Below, piece after piece: positions 3,569-43,135 of a stretch of DNA of 64,000 nt. Both the position numbers and the translations under genes were made by a program. Where the stretch lies: positions 1 to 64,000 of the forward strand of contig JALTZJ010000029.1 of the NCBI GenBank assembly GCA_027046245.1, given 5' to 3'. The number at the start of each line of letters is the position of its first letter. Positions within the stretch are counted from its first letter, which is position 1. The DNA is from Acidilobaceae archaeon. Lineage in GTDB: Archaea; Thermoproteota; Thermoprotei_A; Sulfolobales; Acidilobaceae. Under the pieces are notes generated by a model. The model searched no databases and had not been told where the DNA came from. It worked only from the letters and a program-made list of their open reading frames with translations.

Positions 3569-3635
3569 AGACGAGGCCCGGACCCCGCGCTCCACCCGCC
3601 TCCTCAGGGCGTGTAGGAGGAGGGATTTGAGGGGG

Positions 3636-3764: not shown

Positions 3765-5666
3765 TTAAGTGTTGGCCTGCTTTATGCCTAGCTTCTCCTT
3801 TATCCAGTCTAGTTTTAGTTCTAGCCTCTTCCTGCGGTGTCTTGGCTGTGCTGTGACGCTGTGGCCGTGGCCTCCCTTCTTGAAGACTACTAGTTTGCTT
3901 TCTTTGCCGTGTTTGAGCATTGATACGTGCATTGCTAGGGCCTGGTCTATGAAGCAGCGGTAGTCCTCCATGCTGTGGATTATGAGTAGTGGGGTCTCGG
4001 CCTTCGCAGCGTGGTAGGCGGGGCTGGCTTTTATGTAGCGTTGGGGGTCTTCGTGGGGAGGGGCTCCTAGGTAGTCATGGTCCCACCAGTATCCTATGTC
4101 GCTGGCCCAGTAGTCTGCTATCCAGTCGGCTATGCCGTTCTCGCTCACTGCCGCCTTGAAGCGGCCTCCCGCCTTCACGGTCATAACGTTGGTCATGTAG
4201 CCGCCGTAGCTTATCCCGGTGACCGCCATCCTATCGGGGTCGACTGGGTACCTCTTCTCTACTTCGTCTAGGAAGTCTATGAGCTGCTTGTAGTCCACCT
4301 CCCCCATGCCGCCCTTGAGGTCGGCGTAGTCCTCGCTGTACCCGTCGCTCCCCCGGGGGTTTGCATAGGCCACTATGAAGCCCTCCGCGGCGAAGAGCTG
4401 CATCTCCGGGTGGAACTGGTAGCCGTACATCCCCTTAGGGCCGCCATGTATGAATAGTATCAGGGGCCTCCTCTCCCCGTAGCTCGGCGCGCCATCCGGG
4501 GGCTGCAGGACCCAGCCCTCCACTGTGTCGCCCTGGCTCTCCACAACGAGCCTCTCCGGCCTGGCTAGCCGTCTGCCCCGGAGCCACTCGTTGAGCCTAG
4601 TCAGCCTCTCCAGCCTGCCCTCCCCTGGGAGCCTGTATAGCTCGGGGGGCTCCGTGGGGCTACTCACAACCAGGTACGCCTCGCCGCCCGTGGCGGCTGC
4701 CTGGTGCACGTAGTAGTCCCCCCGGGCAGCGTCCCTGAGGCTGCCGTTCTCCTGGGCAATCGCCAGTACGCTCCTCCCAGAGTCTAGGTAAGTGAAAGCA
4801 ACGCCGCCCCACAGGTCGCCGGCAACGCTAACCACGTTCCTGTCTAGCCTGCTGCAGGTGATGCACTCGAGGGCGCCCCCCGGCTCTAGGAGGTGGAGCT
4901 TGTAGTGGGTCACAGTGCCCCTCTCGAGCCCGTGCATAGCCAGCGCGAGGCCCTTTTCAGTGCACTTCATGCTCCCTATGCTCACACCCTCAGCAACGAC
5001 CTCTCCCTTCCCAGAGCCGCTCCTCAACTCTACTAGCACGTGCCTGTCAGGCCTCCTCCAGTCTGTGGCGACAGCAGCGTAGAGCCTGCCCCCGCACGCC
5101 TCAGCTGCTACAGGCTCCCCCTCAACGCCTAGCTCGACGTTATCGACGTGCCCTGACTCCGCGTCAACCATGTAGAGGCGCTGCTCAACCCCGGCAACCA
5201 GGCCTTCACCCTCAACCCACAAGGGCAGCCTACTAGTGGCGACGTAATCCTCGTCATAGCCATCATCAACTTTCCTATAGCCGCCTACCAGGAGAGTGTC
5301 ATCCCCCGCCCAGCGGAGGAGCCAGACGCCGCGGAAGAAAGCCGCTAGAGGCCTCCAACCCCCTCCCGGCGGAGACAGGAAGACCCAGCCCCTCTCCCCC
5401 GCATCCTTGCCCTCAGCCTTGAAGCCGTGGGGCCTCCCCGTGAAAGCCAGAAGCCCCCGAGGCGAGACAGCCAGAGAGCCGGGCGACTCTAGCGAGAGAG
5501 ACTCCCAGGCGCCGCTACCCCGGCTAACCCTAAGCTCGTACAGGTACCTGTTGCCCTCCAAGTCGGCCCGTTCAACCTGGAATGCAACGCCGCTGGAGGA
5601 GGCGGTGAGCCCTCTGATCCTAGCGATCCTAAGCACGTCCTCGATAGCAAGGAGGTCCCCAGTCAT
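3765..5666 (-). CDS. S9-family peptidase (acylaminoacyl-peptidase/prolyl oligopeptidase type)
   Basis: 633 residues. The N-terminal two thirds are repeated beta-strand blades of a seven-bladed propeller; the C-terminal third is an alpha/beta hydrolase. The oxyanion region HGGPKG is near residue 409, the catalytic Ser sits in GISYGGYM near 486, Asp in MEDYRC near 566, and His in GGHGHS near 601. The triad is complete and the length matches archaeal acyl-peptide hydrolase-like enzymes. It probably hydrolyses short or N-acylated peptides in the cytoplasm; no signal peptide is seen. ATG start. It is divergent from the ABC exporter genes, and a TATA-like element lies between them. A second S9 enzyme is at 47443-49197. 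Confidence 0.93.
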   Translation of the reverse strand: MTGDLLAIEDVLRIARIRGLTASSSGVAFQVERADLEGNRYLYELRVSRGSGAWESLSLESPGSLAVSPRGLLAFTGRPHGFKAEGKDAGERGWVFLSPPGGGWRPLAAFFRGVWLLRWAGDDTLLVGGYRKVDDGYDEDYVATSRLPLWVEGEGLVAGVEQRLYMVDAESGHVDNVELGVEGEPVAAEACGGRLYAAVATDWRRPDRHVLVELRSGSGKGEVVAEGVSIGSMKCTEKGLALAMHGLERGTVTHYKLHLLEPGGALECITCSRLDRNVVSVAGDLWGGVAFTYLDSGRSVLAIAQENGSLRDAARGDYYVHQAAATGGEAYLVVSSPTEPPELYRLPGEGRLERLTRLNEWLRGRRLARPERLVVESQGDTVEGWVLQPPDGAPSYGERRPLILFIHGGPKGMYGYQFHPEMQLFAAEGFIVAYANPRGSDGYSEDYADLKGGMGEVDYKQLIDFLDEVEKRYPVDPDRMAVTGISYGGYMTNVMTVKAGGRFKAAVSENGIADWIADYWASDIGYWWDHDYLGAPPHEDPQRYIKASPAYHAAKAETPLLIIHSMEDYRCFIDQALAMHVSMLKHGKESKLVVFKKGGHGHSVTAQPRHRRKRLELKLDWIKEKLGIKQANT

Positions 5667-9973: not shown

Positions 9974-10900
9974 TTAAGTGGGTCTCCACTTGACTACTCC
10001 ATTCTCCTCCATCTTCTCTGCTAGGCCTCTCTCCTCTAGTAGTCTGAGGTGTGAGAGGGTTTCGCCCATTGCGAAGAAGCGTTCTGGGAGCGGGTACTGA
10101 TTCCAGGAGTCGTAGCGGGTCCTCCATTTTACGAGCCTTGCTACATCGTATGCTGTTGCTTTGCCGAGCTGTTTTAGTATGCCTAGCACCTCCTGGAGTC
10201 TCTCCTCGTGGTGTAAGAGTAGCTCTCTGGCTCTCGCTGCCCCGCTGCTTATAGGCTTCCTGTGGCCTGGGAGGGCGGGGGTAGGGGCTAGCTTTTCCAG
10301 CCGTTTTAGTGTCTCCATGTAGTCTCCGAGGGGGTTGGTGTCTTCGTGGTGTAGGGTTACGTGGGGCGTTATCCCGGGTAGGAGGGTGTCCCCTACTAGG
10401 GCGGGTTTGCCGGGGCCCTGGGTGTAGATTAGGTGGCCTGGTGTGTGGCCGGGCGCTGGGATTGCCTGGTAGTCCGTGCATGGGAGGGGCTCTCCCGGCG
10501 CTAGGGGCTCGGCCTCCTTTGCTATTACCTCGTAGGCGTCGGCGGCTCTGAGTGCGGGGTGGTAGCCTAGTATCTCCTTTGCCTCGTCCTGGGGCATGCC
10601 GTGCCTCGTGAATAGCTCTAGGGTGTCTCTTATGAAGCCCTCCACGCCGCCCTCGTAGCGTAGCACCTCCGCGAGGTCGCCCCTGGGCACGAGCACCTTG
10701 ACTCCGAGGGCTTCCCTGAGGACTGCGGCTGCTGTGAGGTGGTCCACGTGGAAGTGGGTTGCAGCCACGTAGGCTAGCTCGCCGGGGTCTATGCCTAGCA
10801 GCCTCAGAGCCCTGAGGAGTGCTAGGAGGCTGGGAGCGTAGTGCATCCCCGGGTCCACGAGGGCGGGGCCGCACCTGGTCTCCAATAGGTAGGCGTTCAC
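9974..10900 (-). CDS. Metallo-beta-lactamase-fold hydrolase with C-terminal winged helix
   Basis: 308 residues. The metal site THFHVDHL is near residues 47-54, further ligands are PAPGHTPGH near 150 and the Asp in VGDTLLPG, and the last His is in ALPGHRKP. The C-terminal about 90 residues form a winged-helix-like tail (LGKATAYDVARLVKW, then LSHLRLLEERGLA), the arrangement found in the LACTB2/BLACT_WH group. These enzymes act on thioesters, RNA or similar bonds; substrate unknown. GTG start, no operon partner within 70 bases. A long overlapping minus-strand frame at 9960-10874 is a shadow. Confidence 0.85.
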   Translation of the reverse strand: MNAYLLETRCGPALVDPGMHYAPSLLALLRALRLLGIDPGELAYVAATHFHVDHLTAAAVLREALGVKVLVPRGDLAEVLRYEGGVEGFIRDTLELFTRHGMPQDEAKEILGYHPALRAADAYEVIAKEAEPLAPGEPLPCTDYQAIPAPGHTPGHLIYTQGPGKPALVGDTLLPGITPHVTLHHEDTNPLGDYMETLKRLEKLAPTPALPGHRKPISSGAARARELLLHHEERLQEVLGILKQLGKATAYDVARLVKWRTRYDSWNQYPLPERFFAMGETLSHLRLLEERGLAEKMEENGVVKWRPT

Positions 10901-11047
10901 GCTACCTAGGGCCTTGATAGGCAGGGGGACAGGGATCCTACGGGTACCGTGGGCTGCCTCATCTATGATGGGTGCATCTATGACTCGCCACCCCTCTCCA
11001 AGTTAAGAGATTCTATGGGTTGCTGCGGAGCTAATCCACCGATTCCT

Positions 11048-21167: not shown

Positions 21168-21953
21168 TCACCGGACCGCTCCAACATCACCTAGCAGCAT
21201 ATCCCTAAGGGATCGAGCCACTCCAGGCCCGGGCCTTAGGGAGCCGTACTCCGTTACCAGGAGCGAGGCCGCCTTCCACGGGACAGCCTCGAAGACCGGG
21301 CTCCAGCCGCCCCTCTCAAGGCGCTCCACACCCCTCGGGTAGGAGCTGCAGCCGGCCTCCGGCAACGCCTTAGTGGCGTCAGCCAGCACCGCGACGGGCT
21401 TGCCGAGCAGCCTGGCTGACGCCGCTAGAGCGCCACTGCCAACCTTGTTAATGAAGCACTCGTCTAGTATAGCGTCTGCTCCTAGGGCTACCGTGTCGCT
21501 CCTCTCCGCCGCGGTGAACGCTGCTGAGTCACCTAGCACCTCCACTCTTAGACCCGATCGGGCTAGTAGCTTCGCGAGCTCTAGGCCCTCGCCTCCGGGC
21601 CTGCTCTCGAGCACCACCACCAGCCTGGGCCTCGCCTCTATCAGGGCCCTGGCAGTGGTGCCGCTATAGCTGAGAGTTGCCACCCGCGAGTCCTCCAGGA
21701 GTCCCCGCGCCAACGAGGCTATCCTAGCCTCTGCTTCCTCGACATGGCCCAGCAGGCTACGTAGAGAGTCTTCGAGGGCTTCTGGCTCGCCGCAGAGCCT
21801 AGAGACCAGTAGGGAGAGGAGCCTCAAGGGGGCGGCCCAGGGCGCCGCGGCCTCTATCTCCCCTGCGGCTCTACAATCGACGCCCCAGCCCTCCTCAAGG
21901 TCTAAGAGGGCTGCCCTTAGTATCTCCCTGAAGACCAAGCTGGCCCCCTTCAC
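21168..21953 (-). CDS. eIF2B alpha/beta/delta-like protein
   Basis: 261 residues. The C-terminal Rossmann-like part is typical of the eIF2B/ribose-1,5-bisphosphate isomerase family: VATLSYSGTTARAL (about residues 90-103), VVVLESRPGGEG, then GADAILDECFINKVGSGALA and KPVAVLADATKALP. It is shorter than archaeal ribose-1,5-bisphosphate isomerases (about 320 residues), so a regulatory or methylthioribose-related role is equally possible. GTG at 21953 is the first canonical start, but a protein-like helix (LGEALERARRERVKG) continues upstream in frame, and GTG 22006 lies in another frame. A noncanonical start or a small frameshift near the 5' end should be considered. Confidence 0.72.
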   Translation of the reverse strand: MKGASLVFREILRAALLDLEEGWGVDCRAAGEIEAAAPWAAPLRLLSLLVSRLCGEPEALEDSLRSLLGHVEEAEARIASLARGLLEDSRVATLSYSGTTARALIEARPRLVVVLESRPGGEGLELAKLLARSGLRVEVLGDSAAFTAAERSDTVALGADAILDECFINKVGSGALAASARLLGKPVAVLADATKALPEAGCSSYPRGVERLERGGWSPVFEAVPWKAASLLVTEYGSLRPGPGVARSLRDMLLGDVGAVR

Positions 21954-22131
21954 CCGCTCCCTCCTAGCCCTCTCCAGAGCTTCACCCAGCCTAGATCCAG
22001 GTCGTCCCAGGCCACACCACCCTCCGAAAGCCGTTAGACCTGGTATCCGTGTATCTCCGTGTACTTGCGAGTATTAAGAAGCCCTGGACGCTAGTAGTGG
22101 TTAGTATCCGGGTTAGGGGTGCTACTCTGCA

Positions 22132-32791: not shown

Positions 32792-33214
32792 ATGGCGGTC
32801 GAGCGCACCCTACTACTAGTCAAGCCTGACGGCGTCGAGAGGGGCCTCATAGGCGAGGTAATCTCCAGGCTAGAGAGGAAGGGCTTCAAGATAGTCGCCC
32901 TCAAAATGCTCAAGATGACCCGGGAGCAGGCAGAGGAGTTCTACAGCGTGCACCGCGAGAGGCCATTCTTCCAGGAGCTAGTAGACTTCATAACCAGCGG
33001 CCCCATAGTGGCAATGATCGTCGAGGGGGAGAACGCTGTAGAGACTGTCAGGATCATGATAGGCCCCACCGACGGCCGCAAGGCCCCGCCCGGCACGATA
33101 AGGGGCGACTTCAGCCTAGACATAATGGAGAACATAGTGCACGCCAGCGACAGCAAGGAGAGCTTCGAGAGAGAGCATAAGATCGTATTCAAGCCCGAAG
33201 AGATAATAGGCTAA
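32792..33214 (+). CDS. ndk: Nucleoside diphosphate kinase
   Basis: 140 residues. [18 protein letters not shown] at the N-terminus, [20 protein letters not shown] in the middle, the Kpn-loop region and the catalytic His in [15 protein letters not shown] near residue 117 are all present. It transfers the terminal phosphate from ATP to other nucleoside diphosphates. ATG start; a TATA-like ACATTAAAGA lies at 32743-32752. Confidence 0.97.
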
Positions 33215-33378
33215 AGGGAAGCCGCCAGCCAAACCTCCCCCCGGGCTTTAGCCTGGGTCAAACAGTCCTCCACCGAATAAGTTGCCCTCTCACAGGCTTT
33301 TCCATTAACTTGGCGCCGTGGGGTGTGTAGGGTATAGGGGCTCTCAGGAGGCTAGCAGGCACCCTGCTCATAGTAATC

Positions 33379-35394
33379 TTGGGAGTAGCGGTACTCGCCC
33401 TCATACAGGGCGGCGGAGACGGGGGCTCGGGAGCACCTCCTCAGGAGCCGGAACCATTCACTGCCACGGAAACCCCTAGCTACGAGGTTATAGAGCCTAG
33501 GGCGGGGGAGGCCCGGTCTTACGAGGCGTCCTCGGGCGGCGCTGGCGAGGCCGGGGTGAGCGATGCTCCCAGCTATCTGCTCTCTGTGGAGCCTCGTGTA
33601 GTTGTTGCACCCCCTGGTTCCAGTTTCACTCTGTCCATGAGCCTAGCGGGGCTAGACGGGTTCTCTGGCGGCGTTGATGTCGGGCTTGCAGGGGTCTTCT
33701 ACTATGGTAGCGGCTTTGTTAGCGAGCCTCCGAGGGCCCTAGTACTTGGGGATCTCTTTAGGGTTGATAGGGTGTCTCTGCCGCCTGGAGGCGGCTCTGC
33801 TGGTGTAGTCGTTGAGGTGTCTAAGGATGCCCAGCCGGGCAACTACCTGTTGGCCCTCCAGCCGGTCCATGACGGCTTGCTCGGGGCCTCTGTTATAGTT
33901 AACGTCTTCGTTCCCGCAGTGCCCGGCTACGCAGTTATACCGGAGCCCCCTGAGAGGCCTGTCGAGCCCTTCCAGGACGTAGTAGTGAAGCTGAGAGTGG
34001 TGCCAGTCGGCGACTACAGGGGAGAGGTCTACCTTAACGTGGAGTATGAGGGTGTGAAGCTCGTGAGCCTCGAGCCCCGCAGCGGCACGCCGCCCTTCAC
34101 AGCGGAGCTAGTCTTCAGGCTAGAGAGCTACGAAACAGTATGCGAGGAAAACGGCGAGTGTAGGAGCGTCGAGGCAGACCCCTGGAGGGGCCTCGCCGAG
34201 GGCGGCGTTAGCAACGGTAACCGGTTCATCCTAGTGAGTGCTAGCGGCCCCGACGCTCCTCCAGCCCGGGCAGTGATTCTAGTGGGCCTGGAAGAGCCTC
34301 CCAGGAGGCCTGGCCTCTTCGAGACCCTCTTCCGCATCCTGCTATTCCCCCTCTACCTGGCCCTAAGCATATCCCTCTCTACAGTCACAGGAGCAGCGCT
34401 CACCCCCCTAGCCGCCACAGCCCCAGTGCCTACAGTCTACCTAGAGGCCGGGGCAGCAGCGCTGGAGCCCTACAAGCTCCTGGCGCCTCAGGAGGTGCAG
34501 CAGGCTCCGGGAGACGGCGGGACTGGAGGCCCCCTAGAGGCAGAGGGGCACTGGCTGAGAGCGGCTATAGTGAGGAAGGACGGCGGATACACCAGCGTGT
34601 TAAGGATAGCTGCTGTAAGCGAGGCGAAGCCCGCGTCAATAATGGTGCCCAGTCCCCGGCTGATAGGCTCAGCCACTCTCTGGGTCTACGCCCCTGGAGC
34701 TGGAGACAACGTAGAGTTGAGGCTCTACTCTCCTCGAGGCGGGAAGGCGCCCGCGGAGCTACAGATAGTATCGCGGGGCAGCGACTCGCTTGAAGCAGTC
34801 ATCCGCTCTAGGAGCCCGGAGACAGCTACAGTGATACTTGAGGCCGTGGCTGACGGTAGGGTGCTAGACAGGGTCGAACTAGACCTCGTGCCTCCACCCT
34901 CTCAGCAGACATACGCAATAGTATTCGCCAGGCCCGGCGACAGGGTGCTATTAACCGTGCCCCTCCTCATGAGAGACGCCATTATCTATCCCCAGTCCCT
35001 GGAGCAGCTAGACCCCTGGGTTGAGAGGTTCGAGCCCAGGAGCGCCGGGGCGGGCCCCCTGCAGCTGGCAGTCTACACCCAGTACTACAATATCTACTAC
35101 TACTACCCTGCACCCGGTGGCGGCTACCAGAAGCAGGGGGAGGAGACCCGGGAGATCCCGGGGACGGGCAGGATAGAGTACCGGGAGCTGCTTAGTAACA
35201 TGGCCGTAGCGCAGCAGGATCGTGGGTTCGCAGTCGTGGAGCTGAGACTCTCCGATGAGGCCAAGCCGGGAATGTATGTGGTCAGGGTGAGCCCGCCGCC
35301 GAGCTACTCAACTATAAGCTTGGCCATAATAGTGTCGTGGCCCCCGGATCCTGCAGAGCTGGAGCCCCTAATAGTCAAGGTGTACAAGGGCTGA
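33379..35394 (+). CDS. Large secreted or surface-anchored protein, unknown family
   Basis: 671 residues from TTG 33379. The visible chain begins with only half of a hydrophobic helix, while the in-frame codons before it read GALRRLAGTLLIVILGVAVLALIQ, a complete signal anchor. No canonical start exists between the TAG at 33328 and 33379, so initiation is probably at a noncanonical codon (ATA 33334, CTC or CTG 33364) or, less likely, at TTG 33310 with readthrough of the TAG. The rest is rich in beta strands, Pro and Gly, with an internal hydrophobic segment (LFRILLFPLYLALSISLSTV, about residues 317-336) and a Tyr-rich stretch near 570. Function unknown; probably extracellular. Confidence 0.75.
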   Translation: MGVAVLALIQGGGDGGSGAPPQEPEPFTATETPSYEVIEPRAGEARSYEASSGGAGEAGVSDAPSYLLSVEPRVVVAPPGSSFTLSMSLAGLDGFSGGVDVGLAGVFYYGSGFVSEPPRALVLGDLFRVDRVSLPPGGGSAGVVVEVSKDAQPGNYLLALQPVHDGLLGASVIVNVFVPAVPGYAVIPEPPERPVEPFQDVVVKLRVVPVGDYRGEVYLNVEYEGVKLVSLEPRSGTPPFTAELVFRLESYETVCEENGECRSVEADPWRGLAEGGVSNGNRFILVSASGPDAPPARAVILVGLEEPPRRPGLFETLFRILLFPLYLALSISLSTVTGAALTPLAATAPVPTVYLEAGAAALEPYKLLAPQEVQQAPGDGGTGGPLEAEGHWLRAAIVRKDGGYTSVLRIAAVSEAKPASIMVPSPRLIGSATLWVYAPGAGDNVELRLYSPRGGKAPAELQIVSRGSDSLEAVIRSRSPETATVILEAVADGRVLDRVELDLVPPPSQQTYAIVFARPGDRVLLTVPLLMRDAIIYPQSLEQLDPWVERFEPRSAGAGPLQLAVYTQYYNIYYYYPAPGGGYQKQGEETREIPGTGRIEYRELLSNMAVAQQDRGFAVVELRLSDEAKPGMYVVRVSPPPSYSTISLAIIVSWPPDPAELEPLIVKVYKG

Positions 35395-42117: not shown

Positions 42118-42381
42118 TTGGACGTGGAGGAGCTTTTCTGCAAGGGAGGCAGGATCCGTGTTCTGAAGCTGCTACTCGAGAAGGGCTCTATGAATATAAC
42201 GCGGCTAGCCCGCGAGACCGGGCTCCACCATAAAGTCGTCGTTAAGCATATCGAGTACCTCAAGCAGCTGGGGCTAGTAGAGGAGAGGAGATTCGGAAAG
42301 CTTAGGCTAGTAGAGGTTAACTTTAACGATCCGCGTGCTGTTGCTCTCCGCGAGATCCTGAGGAGCCTAGAAGCCCTCTAA
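42118..42381 (+). CDS. Winged-helix transcriptional regulator (ArsR-like)
   Basis: 87 residues, essentially one winged-helix domain: RVLKLLLEKGSMNITRLARE (helices 1-2), TGLHHKVVVKHIEYLKQLGL (recognition helix) and LVEERRFGKLRLVEVN (wing). It is probably a DNA-binding regulator acting as a dimer. TTG start. The 3' end overlaps the convergent TrmB-like gene by about 59 bases, unusually long for convergent genes. Confidence 0.78.
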   Translation: MDVEELFCKGGRIRVLKLLLEKGSMNITRLARETGLHHKVVVKHIEYLKQLGLVEERRFGKLRLVEVNFNDPRAVALREILRSLEAL

Positions 42382-43135
42382 GCCATTCAGCCACGGGGGC
42401 TGCATAACTCGGGCTCCTCACTAGCAGCCCCCTAGCCTCGCCCCTCTGGCTAGGCACCACTATAATCACCCCCTCGCTGGTGACAGCCATATCGGGCAGC
42501 CATGTCGACAGCCTAGCTGCGGGCTTCAAGGGCTCCGGCACCGCCTCCACCCAGGGCGCTGCCACGGCAACCACTACAAGGCGGCCCCTGCTCCTCAAGG
42601 CGTCCACCAGGCCCGCCAGCCTGGCAGCGTGGACTAGGAACACGTTGCTAACGGTGATGTAGCCTGAGCCTGCCTCGTCTACTAGCTCCGCAGCGGCGCT
42701 GAAGACAGAGCTTATACCCTCAAGCACGGTAGTCTCCTCCCTCTCCCATCTCCTAGCTAGAGCCTCAAGGCTCGACGCTACATCCATGACCTCCCTAGCC
42801 CTCCTCCTAGCCTCCTCCTCTATCCTGGCTATCTCGCTAACAGCGACGGCGTTGGGAGGGACGGCACGGTACCAGCCCTCCTCTGTGGGGATCACGAAGC
42901 CCTTGGACTCGAGAACCCTCACTACATCATATATTCTGGGGAGGGGCACGCCGCTCATCGAGCTAGCCTCCCTGGGATTCCTAGCCCCCCGCAGTATGGC
43001 TAGGTATAGCCGGGCCTCGTACTGGGTCAGCCTGAAGCTCCTCTGCAGTCTCTCCACGAACTCGTCGATGTCGCCGCTGCTAGAGCCCAGAACCCTCCAC
43101 CCCCTCCACGCCACTTGAATGGAGCAGCGATGCAA
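42323..43135 (-). CDS. TrmB-family transcriptional regulator
   Basis: 270 residues. The N-terminal winged helix is TrmB-like (LTQYEARLYLAILRGARNPR and VPLPRIYDVVRVLESKGFV), followed by a coiled linker (ARIEEEARRRAREVMDVAS) and an effector-type domain of about 130 residues resembling the phospholipase-D-like sugar-sensing part of TrmB proteins. Such regulators often control sugar transport and metabolism. The start at 43135 is not certain; GTG 43114 is also in frame. A palindrome overlaps its TATA region. Divergent from a CBS protein and near a sugar nucleotidyltransferase. Confidence 0.8.
   Translation of the reverse strand: MHRCSIQVAWRGWRVLGSSSGDIDEFVERLQRSFRLTQYEARLYLAILRGARNPREASSMSGVPLPRIYDVVRVLESKGFVIPTEEGWYRAVPPNAVAVSEIARIEEEARRRAREVMDVASSLEALARRWEREETTVLEGISSVFSAAAELVDEAGSGYITVSNVFLVHAARLAGLVDALRSRGRLVVVAVAAPWVEAVPEPLKPAARLSTWLPDMAVTSEGVIIVVPSQRGEARGLLVRSPSYAAPVAEWLRGLLGSSGSRGEQQHADR

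Follow-up and report, generated by a model that had tools for sequence, protein, structure and literature searches.

How is a protein translated when the codons of its membrane anchor lie ahead of the first ATG, GTG or TTG in the frame? This question is raised by a 687-codon open reading frame (ORF; positions 33331–35391 on the + strand, stop codon 35392–35394) in the window analysed here, a 64,000-nt stretch of a metagenome-assembled Aeropyrum contig (C29 of genome G000, which comprises 1.38 Mb in 73 contigs and is 76% complete).

An anchor encoded ahead of the first canonical start

The frame is closed upstream by an in-frame TAG (33328–33330, +), beyond which lies a neighbouring gene (32792–33214) that we take to resemble nucleoside diphosphate kinase. 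A frame scan bore out the original prediction that no in-frame ATG, GTG or TTG occurs between this TAG and TTG 33379, and that a TTG at 33310 shares the frame and precedes the TAG; it also revealed an in-frame GTG at 33325, directly abutting the TAG, that the prediction had not listed. TTG 33379–33381, the earliest canonical start in the ORF, falls inside the hydrophobic codons at 33352–33408 (LAGTLLIVILGVAVLALIQ, +), in agreement with the earlier claim that an anchor is encoded ahead of any usable start. The best 19-residue hydropathy window reaches 2.59 for the full anchor, compared with 1.01 for a protein started at TTG 33379, and we judge this TTG to be unused.

Translated from ATA 33334–33336, the coding sequence (33334–35394, +) would yield (M)GALRRLAGTLLIVILGVAVLALIQ, with a complete anchor in which a short, basic N terminus (GALRR) leads into the hydrophobic helix, as is characteristic of signal anchors, followed by predicted β-rich domains and an internal hydrophobic helix. 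A structure model of poor confidence (mean pLDDT 48.2) consists of an N-terminal helix (residues 2–25) and a loose linker, then β structure (residues 80–317), a helix (residues 328–354) and further β structure. The product is probably an anchored extracellular protein. Searches of Pfam and NCBIfam gave no family match. With the single sequence as query, relatives were found in 3 of 40 near genomes, its own included, the closest homologs sharing 31% and 27% identity; no ortholog was detected in this way in the single-contig finished Aeropyrum genomes G002 (1,595,994 bases) and G004 (1,669,696 bases), for which a profile returned weak, short N-terminal matches only. The profile search added a partial match in G001 and matched 28 of 214 genomes of the order, many of these matches being short and weak. 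In the genome contig database, the single sequence retrieved no relatives and the alignment retrieved two.

A candidate start signal at ATA 33334 and its rivals

The key signal, absent from the original prediction, is a Shine–Dalgarno (SD)-like GGGGTG at 33320–33325 (+; score 15), 8 nt before ATA 33334; under wider limits, a second SD register of equal score precedes the same codon at a spacing of 6. To place this site among the genes of its genome, we used 142 conserved G000 genes with a single possible canonical start, the commonest being TTG (63 of 142). An SD score of at least 12 was present in 122 of them, with modal spacings of 7 and 8 (25 + 28, or 53 of the 122), and the spacing peak in G002 (143 genes) likewise lies at 7 and 8. 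Among codons 0–5 after the TAG, ATA alone has an SD of at least 12 at a spacing of 7–8. GGGGTG provides a complement to the 16S 3′ end (GGATCACCTC, a sequence taken from G002, not G000) at the modal spacing of the genome. The site departs from SD-directed archaeal initiation at ATG, GTG or TTG in that the codon so placed is ATA, a near-cognate codon one base from AUG, with G at −3.

The comparison with orthologs suggested alongside the original prediction placed ATG opposite this ATA in L008 and L013, two of the three homologs closest to the focal gene. In L008, GGTATGGGGGCTCTGGGGAGG pairs with the focal GGTATAGGGGCTCTCAGGAGG (18 of 21 identical), and the aligned starts read ATA GGG GCT CTC AGG AGG in the focal gene, ATG GGG GCT CTG GGG AGG in L008 and ATG GGG GTA in L013. 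The third close homolog, L006, was placed elsewhere by MAFFT and, by eye, has an apparent TTG start after GGGGTG at a spacing of 10. All nine homolog loci inspected by eye carry a canonical start codon in frame ahead of the anchor. ATA, CTC, CTG and stop readthrough had been named as the possible ways to begin this protein. Among them ATA emerges as the best option because its SD lies at the modal spacing, a G precedes it at −3 and ATG is aligned with it in two of the three closest homologs; CTC, which is not one base from AUG, was set aside, and readthrough is disfavoured for the reasons given below. On this sequence evidence, we consider it rather probable that the focal gene is a normal membrane-anchored protein gene whose translation is directed by the SD to AUA 33334.

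A start at CTG 33364–33366, guided by AGGAGG at 33346–33351 (+) and giving (M)LIVILGVAVLALIQ without the two arginines, has a slightly more favourable calculated SD duplex (−9.1, compared with −8.6 for ATA), and three other G000 genes have CTG as their proposed start. However, its spacing is 10 rather than 7–8 (though 18 of the 122 genes use 10), the base at −3 is A, and residues shared with L008 would be lost: L008 begins MGAL and L013 MGV, each with a basic residue ahead of the anchor, and the counterparts of these residues in the focal gene are encoded upstream of 33364. We therefore regard this start as unlikely. Much the same absence of a canonical start would result if most cells carried ATG at 33334–33336 and the assembled base were an unrepresentative variant or a consensus error. 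A single transition separates ATA from the ATG of the homologs, the assembly consists of 73 contigs and the genome of one relative is a metagenome-assembled genome; yet the small number of broken genes counted below fits poorly with general base error, and finished genomes contain similar proposed starts. A single error at 33336 would still accord with that count, and the explanation as a whole seems improbable to us. Nor do we give much weight to recent silencing, which would make the ORF a decaying pseudogene that has lost its start. The missing canonical start and the small number of near genomes with a match are in keeping with it, but all 687 codons are still open, the SD is intact, and the same pattern is found in a threonyl-tRNA synthetase gene, which is expected to be essential.

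The two readings that retain a canonical start fare worse. TTG 33379 is the sole such codon nearby, and TTG is the most frequent start in this genome, but the duplex ahead of it reaches only −3.2 and the protein would keep half an anchor, whereas the nine homologs, read by eye, retain the full hydrophobic stretch after their starts; we consider it very unlikely. Readthrough of TAG 33328 could draw on either TTG 33310 or GTG 33325, both in frame ahead of the stop, but the SD sits downstream of TTG 33310, whose own upstream site is weak and interrupted (duplex −6.0); both points disfavour readthrough. We found neither a start with its own ribosome-binding site upstream of the stop nor a conserved extension, and none of the nine homolog loci needs a stop to be read; readthrough strikes us as scarcely credible here.

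If initiation does occur at AUA 33334, the 16S 3′ end would pair with GGGGUG 33320–33325 and set AUA into the P site 8 nt downstream, where the initiator tRNA would tolerate the third-position mismatch; TAG 33328 would then be merely the end of an untranslated leader. Under such a mechanism, AUA would be decoded by initiator Met-tRNA and the focal gene would be expressed.

Proposed near-cognate start sites in other Aeropyrum genes

A partial survey of stop-to-stop ORFs covered 754,939 bases of G000 (13,804 of them N) and 1.2 Mb of G002, giving 473 and 513 ORFs, respectively, with a known upstream stop at E ≤ 1e-8, and a stricter set of 407 and 440 at E < 1e-20. Besides the focal gene, we judged by eye that five genes in G000 and two in G002 lack a usable canonical start, and all seven have a near-cognate ATA, CTG or ACG 7–8 nt after a strong SD. 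Three lie in the window, all on the − strand. A metallo-β-lactamase-fold ORF (9974–10981) would start at ATA 10981–10979, with GGGGTG at 10994–10989 (spacing 7), its first canonical codon being already within the conserved part. An eIF2B-related ORF (21168–22010; NCBIfam matches below cut-off) would start at CTG 22010–22008 after GGAGGGTGG at 22025–22017 (spacing 7); its start was compared with G002 only, in which the homolog has TTG. What supports these two cases is the position of the SD, along with alignments of lesser strength (identity 41% and 40%). The third, a TrmB-like regulator (42323–43090), would start at CTG 43090–43088 after GGGGGTGG at 43104–43097 (spacing 7); a TTG and a GTG, both weakly supported, also lie upstream in its frame. 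Elsewhere in G000, a catalytic threonyl-tRNA synthetase (L082, 13726–15147, −; thrS is its best NCBIfam match, below the cut-off of that family) has a proposed CTG start, and a second metallo-β-lactamase-fold ORF (L064, codon at 3619) a proposed ACG start. In G002, ACG is the proposed start of a SPOUT–THUMP methylase (L120, codon at 1257) and of a methyltransferase (L171, 4501–5154, codon at 4504), which has an ATG eight codons further in, inside the conserved part.

The strongest evidence for these starts comes from columns of aligned ortholog starts, read by eye. The threonyl-tRNA synthetase column has CTG in G000, where each of the five other Aeropyrum genomes has GTG or TTG; the L064 gene has ACG in G000 and TTG or GTG in the other five; and the TrmB-like regulator has CTG in G000 and TTG or ATG in the other five. 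In the methyltransferase column (L171, L191), the codon is ACG in G002, ATT in G004, ATG in G001, G003 and G005, and TTG in G000; in G004 a further ATG lies seven codons upstream, the SD falling within that extension. The SPOUT–THUMP gene keeps both ACG and the SD in the two finished genomes, with an additional ATG nine codons upstream in G004; TTG or GTG lies nearby in G000, G001 and G003, and in G005 the start could be either GTG or CTG.

These genes were selected from larger sets by successive filters and inspection. Initially, 39 of 251 ORFs were flagged. A larger pass singled out 53 of the 473 G000 ORFs and 55 of the 513 from G002, which were sorted by eye; most were rejected as antisense ORFs, as alignments entering leaders or because the start fell only a few codons within the aligned region. 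A different filter yielded 10 sites in G000 and 11 in G002, of which five and two were kept. Under a stricter start-less filter (T = 8), 16 of the 407 G000 ORFs and 18 of the 440 G002 ORFs remained, with an SD site named in nine and five; given that near-cognate codons account for just three of these nine and two of these five sites, this filter alone is not decisive. Three candidates were left aside: in G000, a presumably RNase HII-like ORF (C9, 39460–40179, −) and what we take to be a MeaB-like GTPase (C15, 5651–6646, +) have no obvious canonical start before the conserved part, the former offering a CTG lacking an SD of at least 12 at a spacing of 7–8 and the latter GTA or CTG; both were set aside as unclear. 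In G002, ORF b5147 was excluded because its ACG, despite a very strong SD, is followed four codons later by an ATG.

A G at −3 is present at all eight proposed starts, compared with 61% of single canonical starts and 42% for codon position 1 in G000. We also considered genes that lack an SD-supported canonical start, and scored the codons lying at an SD spacing of 7–8 before the conserved part (32 sites in 26 genes, sites within one gene not being independent; the eIF2B case fails this filter and the focal gene is not included). Near-cognate codons occupy 11 of the 32 sites against a background of 12.8% (P = 0.0015), and CTG, ACG, ATA or ATT occupy seven against 5.8% (P = 0.002). The enrichment is moderate, and the test is partly post hoc, since it was drawn up once the first cases were already known. 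Six of the 11 near-cognate sites are proposed cases, and the other five (three AGG, one ATC and one ATA) are probably due to chance.

Random base errors explain the odd starts poorly, because the loss of five starts among 407 genes through such errors should be accompanied by about 60 premature stops in the aligned codons, of which about 35 would be detectable as genes in two pieces, whereas G000 has four split genes among 469, together with one 3′-truncated ORF that ends well before its partner, and because a finished genome has the same type of proposed start. In G002, the split-gene count is 12 of 455; these counts may include antisense artefacts and miss pieces shorter than 60 codons. A separate observation in G002 concerns one presumably thioredoxin-reductase-like gene (C1, ~642982–643512, −), which together with a neighbouring ORF seems to be split between two overlapping frames.

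The initiation machinery was also searched. A match to aIF1 (SUI1) was found in 24 of 26 genomes, including five other Aeropyrum genomes, and in neither G000 nor G006; since G000 is 76% complete, the lack of a match there means little. The aIF1 sequences from 12 of the 24 loci (three of the five from Aeropyrum) showed nothing unusual by eye, and an ARAGORN search for the initiator tRNA returned one CAT tRNA in 1.2 Mb of G002.

Aeropyrum already uses UUG more often than any other start, and a strong SD combined with a G at −3 seems to allow AUA, CUG or ACG, and perhaps AUU, to act occasionally as start codons. We see the evidence as about evenly poised on the broader proposal that the genus has an extended start set, in which these features would make AUA, CUG, ACG and AUU routine in roughly 1% of conserved genes, an aminoacyl-tRNA synthetase among them, with start identity drifting freely within ortholog columns.

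Comparison with known initiation systems

Gene finders usually take just ATG, GTG and TTG as starts, so genes of the kind proposed here would be truncated or mis-started. ATA, CTG and ACG starts in several genes of one genus would be unusual if true, and Aeropyrum would then offer a natural system for studying how much mismatch the archaeal initiation machinery accepts at each of the three start-codon positions. The closest comparison is with A. pernix, of the same genus, for which starts are given as 52% TTG, 28% ATG and 20% GTG (Yamazaki et al. 2006, cited in PMC5911459), with a relaxed first position, an SD at −15 to −4 and enrichment of G at −3 (PMC5911459). The sites found here share the relaxed first position, the SD and the G at −3, but the portion of PMC5911459 used for this comparison makes no mention of ATA, CTG, ACG or ATT. 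Within the titles and abstracts of the open-licence literature that were covered, we found no report of ATA, CTG or ACG starts in Aeropyrum.

Initiation at near-cognate codons is, in general terms, already known. Among bacteria, AUU is the start codon of infC. GTC is that of Streptomyces sigR, as described in PMC5472188, and among 61,358 ancestral AUG starts PMC5622118 gives switches to CUG in two and to AUU in one. The genes proposed here resemble infC and sigR in having an unusual codon as the sole start of the gene. Those bacterial cases are isolated ones, and annotated genomes may conceal more such starts. The present sites make up 5 of 407 conserved genes in one genome and 2 of 440 in another, involve several codon types and occur in an archaeon.
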